Source of the DNA: Pleurostoma richardsiae
Lineage: Eukaryota; Ascomycota; Sordariomycetes; Calosphaeriales; Pleurostomataceae
Length of the DNA: 32,726 nt
NCBI GenBank assembly: GCA_030052745.1
Contig: JANBVO010000096.1
Location: 1-32,726, forward strand
Reading direction: 5' to 3'
Positions within the stretch are counted from its first letter, which is position 1, and every line of letters starts with the position of its first letter. Shown here piece after piece: positions 7,230 to 32,726 of this stretch. The notes beneath the pieces were generated by a model. That model made no database searches and was not told where the DNA came from. It saw only the letters and a list, made by a program, of their open reading frames with translations. The translations under genes and the position numbers were made by a program.

Positions 7230-7784
7230 TTACTTACTATAGTGGTATTGATAGAAACTCGTCACCCAGCCGCAGCTTCTCAACGAGGCATGGCTTTCTG
7301 GTGGACTCATTTCTTCGCCATACAGGATTAGAACTGCGTATGGGGCGACCCATTCCAGAAATCCCACAAACTCGGCGGCTTCGTGCATCCTCCTCTCTGG
7401 TACTACGATTCGATCCATATGGGGGCATTTGAGGGGGCGAATCTGAATCATATGTTCTTCCAAGGCTTTATCCCACATGCAGAAATGAAAGGTCCGCTGA
7501 ATCGCGCCTGCACGCCGTATGCGTAGAGCCGTTTGCCTAGACTCTCGGCAAACTTTTGATATAGGTGAGCATTTCGATGTCGTACGGTCTACTGCAAGGC
7601 CTTCCGAGAGTCCGAGAAACTTCACGGGTATAAACCTCGGTTGGAAGACCGCTTGTTCCCAGACCATGGTCCGGAGCTCGACGGGCAGTCGAGAAAAATG
7701 GTGGAAAATGGTGTCGCGCTTGGGGCCGCCGAGCTCCGTGACAGCCGCGCAATGTCGGTCACCAACTCTGTCACAGATACCCAT
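7230..7784 (-). CDS. 2EXR-domain protein (small, function unknown)
   Basis: An uninterrupted 184-residue frame starts at an ATG at 7784. Residues about 27-45 read FHHFSRLPVELRTMVWEQA, the hallmark start of the fungal 2EXR domain (hydrophobic, L-P-x-E-L-R, then W-E-x-A). Residues about 76-86 read KVCRESRQTAL, the conserved V-C-R-E-S/A-R-x-x-A-L segment. The middle (IRPLKCPHMDRIVVPE) also fits the family. 2EXR proteins are abundant in Pezizomycotina and have no established biochemical role. The ORF is shorter than many members. A splice-acceptor-like CTTAG lies directly before the ATG, so an upstream exon is possible, but an in-frame stop there fits this start. It is divergent from CDC16, with about 430 bp between starts. 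Confidence 0.75.
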   Translation of the reverse strand: MGICDRVGDRHCAAVTELGGPKRDTIFHHFSRLPVELRTMVWEQAVFQPRFIPVKFLGLSEGLAVDRTTSKCSPISKVCRESRQTALRIRRAGAIQRTFHFCMWDKALEEHMIQIRPLKCPHMDRIVVPERRMHEAAEFVGFLEWVAPYAVLILYGEEMSPPESHASLRSCGWVTSFYQYHYSK

Positions 7785-8211: not shown

Positions 8212-10233
8212 ATGTCAGACAACAGCAGCAACGGAGACGGTAGCGTCGACATGGAGCCGCCTTCCCACTCCAAGCTTGCCCAGTTTCTCCGCGAATGGCG
8301 GCAGGAAGCTCTGAACAAGGCCCAGTACGAGAGTGCCATCTCCGTGGGAGATAAGCTTTTGGCATTGACGCGTCCGTATCTCTCACACCTCGCTTCCTGC
8401 ACTCTCCATTGCTGCAGTTGCAGCTGTGCTAACTCGGCGCTTGACCAACTGCAGACGACGACGACGATGTCTTCTGGCTCGCACAGGTCTACTTCGCCAT
8501 GGGCAACTACAAGAGAGCGCTGTCCTACCTCAAGCGCCGCGATCTCATCCACCGCAACCCCTCCTGCAGATACCTGGCCGGCCACTGCCTGGTGAAGCAG
8601 TCCCGATACGACGAAGCTCTCGCCGTACTCGGCGAGCGCAACCCGACCTACCTCATCAAGTCCAAAGACGCAAACAAGCGCAAGATCCAGCCAATAGCAG
8701 GTGGCCAGCGGAAGTCCGGCCCCTCGAAAGCAAAAACACTCGACGACGATAGCGAGACGGAGGAGGAAGCGGCTAACAGGCGTTACCAGGCGGGCATGTG
8801 CTATTTGCGTGGGCTCTGCTTTGCTAAGCAAAACGCGTTTGATCGAGCAAAAGAGGCATACAAGGACGCTGTACGCATTGATGTGCAGTGTCTCGAAGCC
8901 TTCACTCAGTTGACCAAGAACCAACTGCTGGCCCCCGAGGAGGAGTGGGAATTTCTGCAGTCGCTCGACTTCGACTCCATCAAGGTCGGCGGCAAGGCCG
9001 ATCAGGAAGTGGCGGACTACGTCCAGTGGCTCTACAGCAGTCGGCTCTCTAAGTACCAAAATCGTGACGCCATCGCAACCGCCTGCGACACCCTCGCGAC
9101 TCACTACGGGCTGAAGGACAACCCCGACATCCTCCTCGCTCGAGCAGACATATTCTTCACTCAGTGCCGCTTCCGGCAAGCCCTCGAGGTCACGAACGCC
9201 GTTCTCGCCCAGGACAAGTACAACTTCAACATCTATCCTATACATCTGGCGTGCCTTTACGAGCTCAAGGAGAAGAACCAGCTCTTCCTCATCTCGCACG
9301 AGCTCGCCGAGAGCCATCCGGAGGAGCCATGCACGTGGCTTGCGGTGGCCACCTACTACTTCCTGATCGACAAGATCGCCGAGGCGCGGCGATACTTCAG
9401 CAAGGCCAGCATGATGAATCCTCATTTTGCGGCTGCCTGGATTGGTTTTGCCCACACGTTCGCCGCTGAAGGCGAGCACGACCAGGCCATTTCGGCCTAC
9501 TCGACGGCGGCGCGGCTGTTCATGGGCTCGCACCTACCGCAGGTCTTCTTGGGCATGCAGCACCACGCTATGAACAATATGACGGTGGCGGAGGAGCTCC
9601 TCAAAACGGCCTACGGCATGTGCAAGAACGATCCATTGCTGCTGAACGAGATGGGAATCGTCTACTACCACCAGGATCGGCCCAAGGACGCAATCACCAT
9701 GTTCCGCAAGGCGCTCGAGGTCATCGAGGATACCGAGGCCGACGCCGAGGCGTGGCTACGCCCGCGCATCAACCTCGGCTACGCGTACCGCCGGCTGCGT
9801 ATGCACGAGAAGGCGCTCGGCGAGTTCGACCTGGCGCTGCGGGACGGCGGCAGGGACGTGGCCGTCTTCTGCGCGAAGGGCCTCATCTACCTCGAGCTCA
9901 GGCGGCCCGAGGACGCCGTCGAGGTTCTACACGACGCCCTAGCCATCAACGCGCAGGACCCGACCGCCACGGAGTTGCTAAATAAGGCACTCGAGGAGAG
10001 CGCGGCGTCCATCGCACCCGGGCTCGACGAGGGTGCGGATCTGGGGGGAGTTCGAGAAGACTCTCGATAGGGCTAAGGTCAGCGCCAAGGCGAAGCCCGA
10101 GGCAAAGACCAGGCCGCCTGGTAGGGGGGGCGGCAGCTCTCACCGGGACAGGGCCAAGGGCAAGGGCAAGGAGGGCGCGGGAACCGGGAGAGAGAAGGGC
10201 GAGGGCGTCATGGAAACGACTGACGAGGACTGA
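8212..10233 (+). CDS. CDC16: Anaphase-promoting complex subunit Cdc16/APC6 (TPR protein), with one apparent frameshift
   Basis: Exon 1 is 8212-8371 from ATG. The intron is 8372-8454, with a weak GTCCGT donor, a TGCTAAC branch at 8427-8433 and a CTGCAG acceptor. Exon 2 starts at 8455 and reads DDDDVFWLAQVYFAMGNYKR. The TPR superhelix follows, with family landmarks YEAL-like repeats, ARADIFFTQCRFRQALEVTN, YPIHLACLYELKEKN, LFLISHELAESHPE, TWLAVATYYF, SKASMMNPHFAAAWIGF and LLNEMGIVYYH. Cdc16 is a scaffold subunit of the nuclear ubiquitin ligase APC/C that drives cyclin and securin destruction. The open frame stops at 10068-10070, but a G6 run (10043-10048) is followed in the +1-shifted frame by EFEKTLDRAKVSAKAK and a Lys/Gly-rich tail to TGA at 10231-10233. 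With five G the protein would be 645 residues; as read it ends at about residue 591, after the TPR array. It is probably functional either way. Confidence 0.95.
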
Positions 10234-11151: not shown

Positions 11152-11622
11152 CTATTTGGAGTTGTTCGATTTACGCCTGTTCGAGCTCGTGTCACTCCCC
11201 CTGCCAGACGTCTGCGGTTCATTACGCATTCTGGGGATCTGATAGCTTCGATTGCTTCGGAGGGTTGCAGGGTCGGGCGTTGGGCCTGTGTCTCTGCTGG
11301 TCAGTCTCCTGACGCTCTCCGGACGTCCTGTGATGCCCAGGTTCGATCGCATACTCAGACTTCGCCGTACCACTTTCATTGTCTGACACAGGCCCTTGGA
11401 CTTGTAATCTCGGGACATAGCCTCAGTCTTGCGTCTCATGAGATGCCGGCCCACATAGCTCCACATCGTTGCCTGCCTCGTGAACAGTCTGTGACAAAGT
11501 ATGCACTTGTACCGGTCGTCCCGGTAGTGCTGCCGAGAAATCGACATTGCACCGGGTCTATTCTGATCTGCGAGATGGCCTCTGTCAATGTCGGTATACG
11601 GAGGTAGCGGGTCTATAACCAT
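11152..11622 (-). pseudogene. C2H2 zinc-finger-like ORF with a lost histidine ligand
   Basis: A 156-residue frame starts from the first in-frame ATG at 11622. It contains YKCILCHRLFTRQATMWS followed by Y-V-G-R-H. The two cysteines have the CxxC spacing and 12 residues follow, but the first zinc-binding histidine position is tyrosine; the second His is present after three residues. A CAC to TAC change would explain this. The N-terminal part (VIDPLPPYTDIDRGHL) looks protein-like, whereas the C-terminal half is Ser/Arg-rich without motif. It may be a decayed DNA-binding protein or a fragment of a larger C2H2 gene. I have no orthologue name. Confidence 0.45.
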
Positions 11623-11943
11623 CCCTGCGTTAGGTATTATCGGCGCCGGATGATTCACTGGCTCTTATATAATCGGCACATCCGGCAGCCCTGGCACGAC
11701 GGGACATCAACGAGAGACAACCGCATTTGTTGCTTATGGTATCTCTGAGAATGAAGAGTACCACGTCATCTCAGCTGAGCACTGTAGACTGTCCTCATGT
11801 CTCCGCCGCAAACCTAGTCTGAGGTAGCGGCTGGATATACGTGTCCACCCCAGGATCGACCCTCGCAAAAGCGTCCGGAATATCAACCGCAAGGGAAGGG
11901 ATTGTTGCCTCTTCTCCGCTCTGCTGCTGTGGCCTTGTACCGT
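11623..11943. other. No gene recognised
   Basis: A spacer of about 320 bp between two minus-strand remnants. No motif was seen. Confidence 0.45.
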
Positions 11944-18624: not shown

Positions 18625-19786
18625 AAGAGACACGGCCTTACTCATCCGGGACGACTCCTTCCCCCACGAATACCAGCGACTACACCAGCTCCTTGCAAGA
18701 TGGACTTCACAACACGGACAGGTATACTATTCCTGTAGGATGGCCGGACCAGTCTTTTCAACTGTCCGAAACCTCTCTGACGTTTGGCCTTGGGGCTGTT
18801 CATGATCCCACGACCGAAGAGCCTAGCCTGCTCCCAAACGACCTCTGCAGCCAGACAAAGCTCAGTAGCGACGGGAACTCGGTCCCAGTCACTTCGGCCG
18901 TCGTCTGACCCGCAATTAGACGACGTAATGCTTTCGGAACCGTCACAGTCTGCGCAACACTCAGACGGCCCCGATCATTCCCATCTCTTTCGTGTCGTTA
19001 CAGGGACAGCACAACAGGCAGCACTACACAGTCTTGAATCGGGACCACTTACTAATGCCTGCGTGACTTCAAGCCCGAACATGATGCAGGGTGCAACAGA
19101 GATGCTATGTTCACAGTCGCACCTGGCCCAGACCTCTCCCGCTCTCAAGTCAGTCCCCGCAGAGAGCCCGCAAGATACTGCGGTCTATCACAGAATGACT
19201 CTTCAGAACATACTGAATGTTCTCGACGATCCTGTGCCGTCTTCTACCCATTCGGCTCCGCCAAGGGAAGAACCCTCGTTAAATGATGAGCAAAGTGGGC
19301 ACACCCGTTCATTGGCCTCACAGCCGTTGCTACTCTTTGATCCAAGATCCGACAAGCTTTCGTCAGTGACTCGGTCTTGGGCGTACGGAGACGTCAACGG
19401 TATCCAGAAAGACTCAACGAGCTGGGATATATCACAGCACAGAGATACGGGCCATTCGGACACTCGCTCAGTCCAGGACCGCTCTACGATTCCCTCCGAC
19501 CAGCATGTTCCCACGAGAAGAAGAGGTCCGGCTTTGAACCGGCAGAAACGGAAGGGCTGCAAGAGGACAAGAACCGGCTGCGTGACATGCAGATTCAGGA
19601 AGAAAAAATGCGATGAGAAGATACCAGAATGTGAGTCGCGCCCGTTGACCCAGCACATCATTCCCTACTGAAGTTTCTCTAGGTGGTAATTGTCTGAGTG
19701 CTGGCTATCACTGCCAAGGTTATCCCCAGTCCGTTGATTTGAGGAATCCCGCGAAGTTGCCTCCACTTCAGCCTAAGCAATCGTAG
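18625..19786 (+). pseudogene. Zn(II)2Cys6 transcription factor, N-terminal region plus DNA-binding domain; frameshifted and truncated
   Basis: After an acceptor-like CGCGACAG (ends 18624) the frame reads EETRPYSSGTTPSPTNTSDY, then TIPVGWPDQSFQLSETSL, to a TGA at about 18906. It continues in another frame (DPQLDDVMLSEPSQSAQHSD, a MTLQNILNVLDDP motif at about 19195) to the basic segment KRKGCKRTRTGCVTCRFRKK. A 52-bp intron (19631-19682, GTGAGT..CTCTAG) splits the fourth cysteine codon; exon 2 reads CGNCLSAGYHCQGYP. The six cysteines of the binuclear cluster are therefore all present: CxxCx6Cx5CxxCx6C, counted across the splice. The frame then ends at TAG 19784-19786, only about 20 residues past the cluster, so the usual middle-homology/activation region is absent. 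The N-terminal frameshift and early stop make it a probable pseudogene. Confidence 0.72.
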
Positions 19787-27843: not shown

Positions 27844-28376
27844 GTTCGCAGTAAGGGGAGAAGGTCAAGAAGAATTCCGCGATGGTAAGAAACCGAACAT
27901 GCCTGCGAAGAGAAGTGGAAGTGCCTCTATATATAAGTAAGAAGCGAAACGTCTCTTCTACATGTACGTGGTTCGAAAGCGGGGGTTTGTCGTGTCGAGA
28001 TCCGGACTTAACCTTGAAACCCGCACCTACCGGACTTAAAAGTGAGCAAAACATGGACCACCTACCATGCCAAATGAAGCCCACGTCTTGAGCCGTACAT
28101 ATTATCTCTTCTTCGATTTTCGAGCCCGAAAAATAAGGTCTTTGAAGCAGAGAAAGAGCCGCGTATATACTGTTCGTTTCCTACTATGTAGTTCACCACC
28201 TTGGGACTGAGGTCGAATACACGTGAAGAGAAGCCCATCGTTGTGCGGCGGTCCCTGGGACCTCCGTATGGCCACTCGTGGTCAACAATGAGCGTCCAAC
28301 TCGACAGGGGGCGTGCCCATCACTGCTAGAGATGAGGCTCGAGTCAGCGTCAGCTCCCCAACTCGGGGCCGTCATA
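27844..28376. other. Promoter region of the aldo/keto reductase and spacer
   Basis: No coding motif. The first 100 bp hold the TATA-like element; the remainder to the direct repeats shows nothing recognisable. Confidence 0.5.
27928..27938 (-). promoter_or_regulatory. TATA-like element of the aldo/keto reductase gene
   Basis: The minus strand reads CTTATATATAG, 85-95 nt upstream of the ATG at 27843. Position and sequence fit a core promoter TATA box with a 5' leader of about 60 nt. Confidence 0.55.
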
Positions 28377-28505
28377 CTCGATACTATCTAGTGTTACCAC
28401 AAACTGTGGGCCTTGAGAGCTTGTCGTCCTCGATACTATCTAGTGTGCTACGACCCTCGTCCCCACTTTAGAACCAAACAAACTGTGGGCCTTTAGGGCT
28501 TGTCG
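28377..28505. repeat. Two interleaved direct-repeat pairs
   Basis: CTCGATACTATCTAGTGT occurs identically at 28377-28394 and 28429-28446. CAAACTGTGGGCCTT followed by a GAGAGCTTGTCG-like end occurs at 28400-28426 and 28479-28505, with a few mismatches. The order A-B-A-B with unequal spacing indicates an ancient tandem duplication. It lies about 200 bp before the Gag-like ORF and could be part of an LTR-like or promoter region. Confidence 0.8.
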
Positions 28506-28569
28506 CGGACACGATGCTGACCCGGCGGCTGACCGAGGTAACCAGACCTTAACTCCATGTCTGTGGTTC

Positions 28570-28577
28570 TATAAGTA
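28570..28577 (+). promoter_or_regulatory. TATA-like element before the Gag-like ORF
   Basis: TATAAGTA lies 136-143 nt before the ATG at 28713 and is followed by a CT/GT-rich leader. It fits a pol II core promoter, such as the U3 end of an LTR. No transcription start evidence is available. Confidence 0.4.
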
Positions 28578-28712
28578 GGGGGCCATTCCTCTTCACAAGT
28601 CGACTGTTTCTGAGTGCCGTCACCCTCCGATATAGCTGCTTGTCGAGCGTGCCTTCATCGTGACTGTTTTTCTATTTGAATTGTTTCCGACGTTTTCTTG
28701 TCTGGCCCCGTG

Positions 28713-29299
28713 ATGTGGTTGGCTGGACCAGAAGATATTCAGTCGTGGTCAGTACACCTAGAAAAGATGGCGGAACTCGCGGGTTGCCATGACGTCCTAT
28801 TTGACCGTTGCTTCGACGAGGCTATGAAAACGTTTGATCCGAGCACTACCGGCGGTCTGCTGGCCAAACTTCGGAGAAAGCAGGCTATGACTTTTCTGCA
28901 CAACTCCGTGTCCGGCAAGGTGTGGGCGTTCATGCGAGTAATGGGCTATTCGGACTTTGCATTCGATCCCTTTAAAGCTCGGCTATGCGCTATAGAAGCG
29001 GCGAGGAGTCTCCCTGCAGCGGAGATATATGAGTAGAGCAGGGAGGAGATCGACAAGATGTCCACGAGTGGCGCTGCGCAAGATTAAAGTACTACTGGAC
29101 CGACGAGCGGTACGAGGAGGCTAAGAAGTGGCTGGGCGAGCGGCTGAAACTGTACTATGACAATGGGCATCCCGAGGTGCGCCGCTTCATGGATACGGAA
29201 TCTCGAATTCCGACAGTCACGATTGATTCCAACGATGCCTCATATGTCGACGAGGCTCCGTCTACGGCAATTATCCGTGTTAAGCAAGAGGTGCAGTAG
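28713..29299 (+). pseudogene. Possible Gag-like protein of an LTR-type element, interrupted
   Basis: ATG at 28713 opens WLAGPEDIQSWSVHLEKMAE, whose L-x-G-P-E-(D/N)-(I/W)-x-x-W start resembles copia-type Gag proteins. Alpha-helical sequence follows (LLAKLRRKQAMTFLHNSVSG, MGYSDFAFDPFKARLCAIEA) to TAG at 29034-29036. The same frame resumes as SREEIDKMSTSGAAQD to a TAA at 29085. After a frameshift it reads YYWTDERYEEAKKWLGERLK, HPEVRRFMDTESRIPTVTID and a final IIRVKQEVQ to TAG at 29297. No zinc knuckle, protease, integrase or reverse transcriptase follows, so mobile-element origin is an inference from the N-terminal motif and the upstream repeats. It could equally be a decayed cellular gene. Confidence 0.4.
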
Positions 29300-29892
29300 A
29301 TTAGAGGGTGGTTGAGATGGAGCGAGCGCGTCGAGTGGCCGAGACGCCCCGTGAGCAAGTCGATGTTGATATCCTCGATCGACTCGTGCCCTCGGACAAG
29401 GGAGCCTCGTTCTAGGGTGGAGCAAGTATATGGGAGACGGAGAATGTTTGAAAATCGAGAGGTAAAGCGGGTAAATTATCGATATAGACGTTCTATTGAA
29501 ATAAACCCTATCTACTTGCTCCTGCGGATCTCGTGAACCTAATGCTGCCATTCGTCTATCGCCGAAGGATCTCCATGCGCCGCACTGCCTCGGTCTGGGC
29601 GGGCGTAGCTGCGCCGTCAACAGACATAGAGCTCGCCGTGATCGAATCAGCATCGCGTGAATTCGTGAGGACAGCCATGTTAAACAGCACAGGCTGTTAG
29701 ATTATGATCCTTTTCGACGTGAGGGTTATCCGATTAAACACCATGCCCTGTTGGTCAGACGGCCTCTTTCTGCCGGCAGAATTCAGCTCCACGGACAACC
29801 CGCGTTTCCTCCATCGCCATCACGCTTCGAGCCATTTCGAGATTCCACCACGAGTCCTTGGATAAATAAGGCCGACAACTCGGAATAATTGC
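29300..29892. other. No gene recognised
   Basis: Includes an AT-rich segment (about 29440-29530) after the Gag-like remnant. No LTR copy of the repeats at 28377-28505 was found here by eye. Confidence 0.4.
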
Positions 29893-30452
29893 ATGACACG
29901 CGAGGCTCGCCTCCTGTTGCCGCATCATCATTATTCCGACATCCCCCACCAGGCGCGACACCGCCGGTCGCGGTCGCACATCGAAGTAGATGATGAAGCC
30001 GATGACGTCCGCCACGGCGACAAGTCCTCATCGCCCGCCTCCGAGCACGCGAAGAGCATGCGCCTCCGCGACTGGTGAAAATGTGCTTCAAGAACCACGC
30101 GCAGGCTGTGCACAACTTCGATCTCAGGCCCAAGGTCAAAAGATGGACGATAACGACGAGATCTGTAGCCCCAGACGAAAGCGCGGCACCCACGACACGA
30201 ATCATCATCCGCCGAAGTATTGAGAAGCCGAAAAGCAGCCGGAAGATCGTCCTCCGGCTAGGCGGGCAGGGAGCCAGGCGGGCTACCAAAAGTCCATATA
30301 CTCCATCCCAGCGTCACAAAATTACATAGGGAACTAAGGACGCAGACGCGACCGAGTCCGCACCAACATCCAAGCGTAAGCCTGATTGGGGTGACACGAG
30401 CCACGCGCAGAAGAGGACAAGGACGGATCGAGGAGACATCAGAGGCGCATGA
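29893..30452 (+). pseudogene. Low-complexity basic/acidic protein remnant, unknown family
   Basis: Three plus-strand frames succeed one another. ATG 29893 gives HRRSRSHIEVDDEADDVRHG ... SPASEHAKSMRLRD with a stop at 30076. A second frame reads GQKMDDNDEICSPRRKRGTH. A third reads TTRIIIRRSIEKPKSSRKIV, then LRLGGQG, to an in-frame TAG (30327-30329), resuming with KDADATESAPTSKRKPDWGD and AQKRTRTDRG to TGA at 30450-30452. The mix of acidic patches and KR-rich nuclear-localisation-like patches suggests a nuclear or chromatin-associated protein, but I recognise no family. A nonsense codon and two phase changes argue for decay. Confidence 0.35.
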
Positions 30453-31361
30453 CGGCCTGAAGACTCACGGTGTTCCGTCGGCACACCCTGAGAGCAGTTG
30501 TCGCCTGATAGAATGGCGAACGGTTCTACTCCTGCATGCCCGCCAGCCTAGAGGACAGTACAGCGAAACGCAACACATATCCGGCTCAGCCAAGGCAGGC
30601 TGCCTGACAAGATGGCTGTGTCATAGCCACACTCTCTAAGGTCATGGCAGAACGTTCTCTTCAGTGTGTATCGAGCATGGTTCACATGGGATTTTGAGAC
30701 CAAATGGATATTGGAAGCCTAACGATTGTCTACTGAGTGGCTGAAATTATCTCAACATTGCTGATTGCACTAAAGATCACCTTTCAATAAAGGGCTCATG
30801 GGGCAGGCACGCAGGCAGATCGACTGTTCTGGGCGAGCATATGCAGATGCCAATAAACGTTGGCTGTATGCTGGTCGGGTTGGCGAACCTAGATGTAGCA
30901 TCGTCGTAGGCAGATAGCGTAGCGTCCGAGACTGGGAGCATTAGGTAGCAGCTGCGTGTCGTCTCTGGTTCAATATTCGAGCTCCGGCGATGAACGCCTC
31001 CGGTTCCGCCTTACAGATCACTCCGCGCTAGGCTTTAGCTAGGGGCCGTAGGTCTCTCTGGTGGGCCTAGGGAGTCAAGGACCGATCCTTTCCAGTTCCT
31101 GTATTGGCAGAGCGGTAGCATGTGCCATGCTCGGTGTTGCTGCAGACTGGGCACACCCCTTGCCGCTCACAAGGAGAACGCGACGACGGCTCTCCCTCCT
31201 GTGCTCAGGCAGAGTCAGATGGGTGAAGATACAGGGTCCGTAGATACACACTTTTCCTCCTTCGGTGGACGTCGGACAAAGCATGGCCCGGTCCTCGCTG
31301 GGTCTGCAGTGCTATCGCCATCCAAAGACGGGGGGCCGGTCTGGCGGCGAGCACTGGACTA
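30453..31361. other. No gene recognised
   Basis: About 0.9 kb with short open frames on both strands and no motif. A sequence related to the GATCCA repeat (ATCCAAAGACGGGG) appears at about 31320. Confidence 0.4.
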
Positions 31362-31644
31362 GATCCAGAATTGGCTCTTTCACGGGAGCCGTTGGTCTGC
31401 GCCTAGAGAGGAAGGTGTCTGGCCGAGATCCAAAACTGGCCCGCCAACTGCCCGATCCATCGAGAGACAGAGCTAACCTGGTACGGAAAGTCGATCCCTC
31501 ATCAGGACGCCGACAACGCGTCGGGCGGGGCGTGAAGCAACGTAATTACCGCAGGGCTGGTGACGCGATGCCGAACCCTGCCAAAGATCCAAAAACGGCT
31601 CTCCAAAACCAGAAGGAGGTTCATTCAGATCCAGATATGGCTCC
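31362..31644. repeat. Four dispersed copies of a degenerate 16-mer GATCCARAWHYGGCYC
   Basis: Copies are at 31362-31377, 31427-31442, 31586-31601 and 31629-31644. The frame 31265-31705 is open across them and reads DPKLARQ, DPKTALQ and DPDMAPA at the last three; the first copy encodes DPELALS in a different phase. This suggests a decayed coding tandem repeat rather than regulatory sites. Confidence 0.55.
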
Positions 31645-32137
31645 TGCATCCCTGGCGGGGCGTGCCTGGCCCGGCTGCGTCGTCAGCGGCCAGCAGACGC
31701 CATGAGCCCATCGTCCACAGCTACTTCTGAGATCCTTGTCGTCCATCGGGGGTTCGGCACGGAGACGGAAGCGTCAGTTCAGTCCGGGGCATCATTCACC
31801 ACGAGTCCCGGGCTTGCTATGAGCTCTTTCTGCGTTGTGATCGGGCGCTGCTGGACGAACAGGAGCCAATAGGCGAAGAGCAAGCGTTCCTACATCTCGG
31901 TGCTTTCTACGCTCCCTATTGGTCAATGACAGCCAAGATCATGGCGTCTACGTCTGGTGATCGCGCTCATACAATACACCCTGCGCATCTGCATATAGGA
32001 GATTCGCGGATAGTCTTAGGTTTGGTGAATCTGGCGGCTGCGGAACGTCGTCTCGTGCTCATTGTGCACCTATCTGGAGCATCTAGATCCGTATCCTGTC
32101 CGCACTGTTCCTCCTCGCCCCCGCTGGCTCGCGTCCG
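31645..32137. other. Upstream part of the DUF3435 locus, not resolved
   Basis: Open plus-strand stretches (such as MSPSSTATSEILVVHRG from ATG 31701, and ACYELFLRCDRALLDEQEPI, about 31815-31875) may be the N-terminal part of the DUF3435 gene, but I could not align them to the family with confidence. Confidence 0.3.
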
Positions 32138-32726
32138 AAGTCCATACCACTGCTCCGGTTCGGTGAAATACGGGTTGTGCTGTCGAGAGACCCCGAGGGC
32201 AGGCCGCATAACATCATGGTCAAATTCACATTGGAGTTCATCACGACGTACCAGGGTGCCAAGGACGCGTAGGTGTGCCGCCGCAGAGGCCCCGGCCCGC
32301 CGCGTCTGCGTCTCCATCTCACGTGCATATGCTGACGAACGTCGGGAACACCGCTCCCCTCCCCGAGACCATGTTCGAGACTAAGTTCAACCTGTCACTA
32401 CTTCTCAGCCACCACGTCTTCTCGGCATCCTCTTCCGACACCGCGCGTTCCGGGAGCCCGAGCTCGTCTCGCCCCGGCAGCTGGACAGCCTCGACATCCA
32501 CCCGGACGAGCTCGAGCTGCGCATACCCCTGCGGCGCGACCTGCACGATGTGTGTCTATTCCGCCGCGCCGTCCGGACCCTGACCGGGTACGACATGTCC
32601 CCGACAGAGCCCATCACCTACGCCATGATGGCGGCGTGGACCAAGAAGATCGGCGAGATCATGGGCCTCGAGATAGGCACGATCCCGTACAACCTGCGCT
32701 ACAACGCAGGCAACGAGTTTGACCAG
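32138..32726 (+). pseudogene. DUF3435 protein (tyrosine-recombinase-related), damaged and cut by the window edge
   Basis: KSIPLLRFGEIRVVLSRDPE and NIMVKFTLEFITTYQGAKDA (32138-32269) match the 'LRYxDIxxxLLRDPEG..' core of DUF3435; a TAG follows at 32270-32272. After about 60 unaligned bases, APLPETMFETKFNLSLLLSH ends in HVF (to 32419). There the frame shifts, consistent with a 4-bp loss within CTTCCTTC, and continues uninterrupted to the edge: LLGILFRHRAFREPELVSPR, LDSLDIHPDELELRIPLRRD, PITYAMMAAWTKKIGEIMGL, IPYNLRYNAGNEFD. The last motif corresponds to the conserved Arg box of the recombinase fold. DUF3435 includes the captain recombinases of Starship elements and many non-captain relatives; which of these this is cannot be told from the fragment. 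Confidence 0.85.

Follow-up and report, generated by a model that had tools for sequence, protein, structure and literature searches.

DUF3435 gene at the right contig end

The window, i.e. the whole stretch of DNA that we analysed, comprises the entire contig C133 (32,726 bases) of a 39.4 Mb genome in 136 contigs, which its gene families suggest to be fungal. At its right end we found the remnant of a DUF3435 gene on the plus strand (window 32087-32726), with coding pieces at 32087-32269 and 32347-32726 according to tblastn. The features referred to below are as follows:

11200..11703, minus strand: weaker relic of a DUF3435 C-terminal tail of the C32 type with a C2H2-like finger (tblastn, 41% over 174 positions, E 3.8e-28)
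28220..30272, plus strand: block matching contig C129 (89% and 86% nucleotide identity), which holds the 'Gag-like' frames
29634..31185, plus strand: pieces of a dispersed locus with other copies on C54 and C79, with less DNA between the pieces in the window
30078..30455, plus strand: C32/C15-type 3' tail, from a second DUF3435 subfamily, that lacks the recombinase domain (tblastn)
32085..32269, plus strand: exon-3-like piece of the DUF3435 gene with the segment APAGSRPKS (blastn break, PF11917, tblastn)
32268..32346, plus strand: probable intron with inferred borders, carrying an in-frame stop common to four of four copies
32347..32726, plus strand: exon-4-like piece of the DUF3435 gene with a frameshift near 32.42 kb (PF11917, amino acid identity to C44)

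The first-pass annotation had placed a DUF3435 gene on the plus strand at the right edge and had suggested a PF11917 profile search, and this search bears the gene out: the 114-aa frame at 32385-32726 reached 92.5 bits (E 3.5e-26), above the curated cut-off of 25.8. Profile positions 33-86 were matched at window 32108-32269 and positions 108-210 at 32418-32726. Over 103 residues of the 114-aa frame we observed 98% amino acid identity with the copy on C44. A search for relatives with solved structures gave none for the window frame; a relative on C85 had three, at E 0.21-0.24.

Tyrosine recombinases share a signature of Arg I, (H/Y)xxR and a C-terminal H...Y. The Arg-box segment IPYNLRYNAGNEFD claimed by the annotation is present (followed by Q) in the exon-4-like part at the right contig end. 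A second Arg-containing segment, APAGSRPKS, lies earlier in the remnant; we take it to be the Arg-I-like segment of tyrosine recombinases and YNLR to be a segment of the (H/Y)xxR type. The first two recombinase segments are present in the window and the Tyr end would fall beyond the contig end. In the relatives C44, C129 and C79 the next exon carries LGHAN...KHYLGRE (regular expression search, three of 13 loci scanned), and a variant of the LGH...Y segment is visible in C87. The family assignment holds: this is a DUF3435 tyrosine recombinase of the Starship-captain type.

Damage to the gene

Compared with C44, C87 and C129, the relatives with the longest matches, homology starts abruptly at window 32085 (blastn); the shorter matches on C79, C80 and C60 begin further inside the gene. 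In C44, where by our own count the start codon lies near C44:2113, open frames of ~230 codons (106 + about 79 + 45, with inferred intron borders) precede the point equivalent to 32085. When the exon-1 and exon-2 pieces of C44 were compared with the window by tblastn, the best match had E about 0.6. The gene lacks its 5' part, being truncated at 32085, and homology to its 5' third is absent from the window. At the other side the right contig end falls inside the gene, with no DNA to the right of 32726.

A stop and a frameshift had been reported as further damage. The frameshift near 32.42 kb stands, whereas the in-frame stop near 32270 is probably no sign of damage: it occurs at the identical place in the window, C44, C87 and C129, i.e. 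in all four aligned copies, and is therefore probably intronic, although it may instead be an old inherited stop. At the stop the PF11917 match breaks off in two copies, its profile positions jumping from 86 to 108 in the window and from 81 to 100 in C60, whereas it runs through the stop in C44, C87 and C129. The 3' border of the presumed intron looks degenerate in the window.

Region upstream of the gene

The stretch between 28.4 and 32 kb had been described as mobile-DNA-like. This description is right in that the region is rich in relics and contains short direct repeats (28371-28505), but the 'Gag-like' frames gave it no support: neither the frames at 28680-29033 and 29033-29296 nor the C129 frame had a Pfam match (Gag included) up to E 10. 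The frame at 28680-29033 occurs at four genomic places including itself, with relatives on C129, C125 and C74; on C74 the frame is open over 403 aa.

Window 28220-29684 matched C129 at 89% and window 29728-30272 at 86% nucleotide identity. The part at 28220-29640 was found at two genomic places, C133 and C129, and 29634-30259 recurs elsewhere in the genome. The C129 counterpart of 28220-30272 lies within C129:31181-34085, which interrupts a DUF3435 gene of the C44 type from exon 1 on; the flanks of this interruption correspond to C44:1894-2353 and C44:103-1570. The interrupting stretch measures 2.9 kb where C44 has about 0.3 kb, and its first 0.8 kb are absent from the window. We considered position 28220 as an element border and rejected this as the most likely reading, because the same block in C129 lies within a captain-type gene.

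Window 30078-30455 showed 70% identity over 127 residues to an open frame of 392 aa on C32 (tblastn). We also asked whether the C32 and C15 frames could be the right half that the window gene lacks, and rejected this: they cover PF11917 positions that C44 covers with different sequence and therefore belong to another subfamily. The tail relic at 11200-11703 had no Pfam match, and the finger label is our own. Parts of 29634-31185 are found on C60, C32 and C15, besides C54 and C79. When window 31150-32084 was searched for repeats in the genome, itself alone was reported. The interval from 28.2 to 31.2 kb is a mosaic of relics with no single recognisable element.

Further to the left, window 8445-10067 and 7233-7784 hold a TPR gene with a match to ANAPC3 (anaphase-promoting complex) and a frame of the 2EXR family. 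Window 19435-19724 has 70% nucleotide identity to C32 (L043 5544-5831), and on both contigs the match adjoins or falls within frames with a match to the fungal Zn2Cys6 cluster. As for RIP indices, none of the 17 bins of the window had a TpA/ApT above 0.85; the substrate index was 0.99 in the short last bin, 1.03 at 28001-30000 and higher elsewhere. C15:1-10000 (L036) showed a strong RIP-type bias (TpA/ApT 1.34, substrate index 0.71), whereas its homologue on C32 was without bias.

DUF3435 loci across the genome

The PF11917 search of the genome returned at least 34 matches, which we grouped into 20 loci on 17 contigs. Eight of the 20 loci lie within 25 bases of a contig end (C44, C87, C129, C133, C126, C32, C15 and one of the two loci on C120). 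Six loci (C44, C129, C87, C108, C65 and C79) have in common a block that precedes the start codon, and in C79 the match ends short of that codon. Ahead of the start codon, C44, C87 and C65 are alike over about 450 bp; beyond that point C44 meets AT-rich DNA, whereas C87 and C65 have further flank in common. Against a uniform border, C79 has the end of a TPR gene upstream and C129 is 75% identical there; the corresponding C129 frame had no Pfam match. Some of the relatives look captain-like, e.g. by the conserved 5' border.

The pairs C80/C123 and C64/C120 have mainly 3.3-3.4 kb around the gene in common in the stretches compared (L017 3478-6877 with L018 3048-6406, and L031 3244-6513 with L032 3036-6275). 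By eye both pairs show abrupt 5' borders beside AT-rich DNA, for C120 close to the border only. In the pair L031/L032 both copies carry the motif AATTACA two bases ahead of where their common sequence begins.

An accessory DUF3723 gene near the captain is a known, though not obligatory, Starship association. The search of the genome gave six DUF3723 matches, which we grouped into three loci (C129, C64 and C9), and none on C133 near the window gene; C129 and C64 carry both families. A genome that carries Starship-type elements fits these results, which fall short of proof. The 35.5-kb contig C129 (27247-28326, i.e. L037 2248-3327, and 9287-10928) holds a frame with GNAT and bromodomain, presumably GCN5-like, and DUF3723 matches including an open 766-aa frame, as well as the broken DUF3435 gene at its end.

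Origin of the contig-end fragment

Captains move their elements by the strand exchange of tyrosine recombinases. In the literature the captain is described as the first gene of its element, whose movement it directs. The window gene shares with Starship captains the PF11917 match and the Arg-I-like and Y-x-x-R segments; in contrast to them, neither its N-terminus nor the upstream block was found, it has no demonstrated element borders or cargo, and its Tyr end is off the contig. We consider it most probable (about 0.78) that a DUF3435 tyrosine recombinase gene of the Starship-captain type survives at the right end of the window as a dead and rearranged fragment. A relic is favoured by the break at 32085, seen against C44, C87 and C129, whose matches span the gene, by the missing exon-1 and exon-2 traces and upstream block, by the number of DUF3435 loci at contig ends, by the tails of the second subfamily at 30078-30455 and 11200-11703, by the interrupted gene on C129 and by the uneven divergence from C44. 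Two observations count against it: the exon-4 part is little changed compared with C44, which is unusual for an old relic and could reflect conversion, recent descent or a misjoin, and the contig end hides the remainder of the gene. We infer that multi-copy captain-type genes and their debris would have recombined, or taken insertions and deletions, at the right end of the window. The outcome would be a gene middle from one subfamily next to a tail from another and next to the block by which such a gene is interrupted in C129. The assembly would have halted inside the gene because the conserved DUF3435 core is repeated. The window copy itself could not direct the movement of an element. Descent from a captain is plausible.

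That the gene is a decayed 'solo' DUF3435 gene which never travelled with cargo is a tentative alternative that we regard as possible; it overlaps with the dead-fragment reading and does not exclude it. According to a passage of PMC12134995, solo genes outnumber captains, and the confinement of the common sequence in C80/C123 and C64/C120 mainly to the surroundings of the gene points the same way. Like the solo or degraded DUF3435 genes described in PMC12134995 and PMC11623301, the window gene is truncated, frameshifted and without a demonstrated element; unlike them it belongs to a mosaic that includes a tail from the second DUF3435 subfamily. The likeness of C44, C87 and C65 up to about 450 bp upstream, as captains might show, argues against a solo origin; the 3' side of these three copies is not assembled. 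According to passages of PMC12134995 and PMC11905480, captains do not cluster apart from other DUF3435 genes.

An assembly artefact, with a collapsed repeat misjoined as the final ~305 bases, is unlikely. The identity to C44 rises sharply at the frameshift: across the last 305 bases we counted 8 differing sites in gap-free columns (97% identity) compared to 52 across the preceding 324 bases (p 2.9e-9). Moreover, the final 45 bases are identical to C44 and the contig terminates there. The contrast is partly a matter of exon conservation, because the comparisons C129-C44 (29/328 in the left part, 13/341 in the right part, p 0.01) and C87-C44 (40/331 and 30/340) show a similar trend, with right-hand parts that include a few dozen columns past the window end. 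Beyond exon conservation the contrast may reflect a patchwork history, conversion or a misjoin. The 309 bases of the exon-4 part differ from C44 by 6 residue-keeping and 3 residue-changing nucleotide differences. Against an artefact, DUF3435 sequence that is collinear with the remainder is already present at 32085-32421, and the last part is 97% and not 100% identical to C44. The near-identity to C44 starts at the frameshift (window 32418-32726) and is a possible conversion tract or misjoin.

The first-pass annotation had proposed the possible left end of a Starship-like element that starts a little left of the gene and continues to the right, beyond the window. In this reading the element could begin e.g. 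near 28220, and its captain would be secondarily damaged. The orientation of the gene fits, a homology border at 28220 is common to the window and C129, and the relatives have captain-like features. We nevertheless judge this reading to be improbable. Neither the N-terminus nor the six-locus upstream block was found in the window (blastn for the block), and the block at 28220-30272 is no element edge in C129. In the stretches compared there was no blastn match between the window and C129 to the left of it. Looking for a captain at the 5' end of an element, we identified no element border in the window, and the upstream DNA is largely debris of other loci. The left-end reading is therefore unsupported. 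Its companion proposal, a Crypton-like element, is very improbable: a tyrosine recombinase is used by Cryptons as well (PMC3212892), but PF11917 was the only Pfam model matched by the window fragment, and a passage of PMC12134995 describes Starship and Crypton recombinases as very distantly related.

Implications

The fragment at the contig end is an ordinary, known kind of mobile-element recombinase remnant. A good DUF3435 match at a contig edge should not be equated with the end of a Starship, and since eight of the 20 DUF3435 loci lie at contig ends, Starship counts from this assembly could mislead. A broader and rather unlikely idea is that captain genes of different subfamilies recombine in relic clusters, giving rise to captain loci that are chimeric. 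On this view the window and C129 would be two snapshots of such chimerism, with a tail of the C32 type by a core of the C44 type, and the near-identical tract would suggest gene conversion; this we offer with similar reserve. If captain loci do recombine in this way, this would be relevant to the way in which Starships change their captains, a question raised in a passage of PMC12134995, and gene conversion between captains, if true, would be a possible route for captain swapping.
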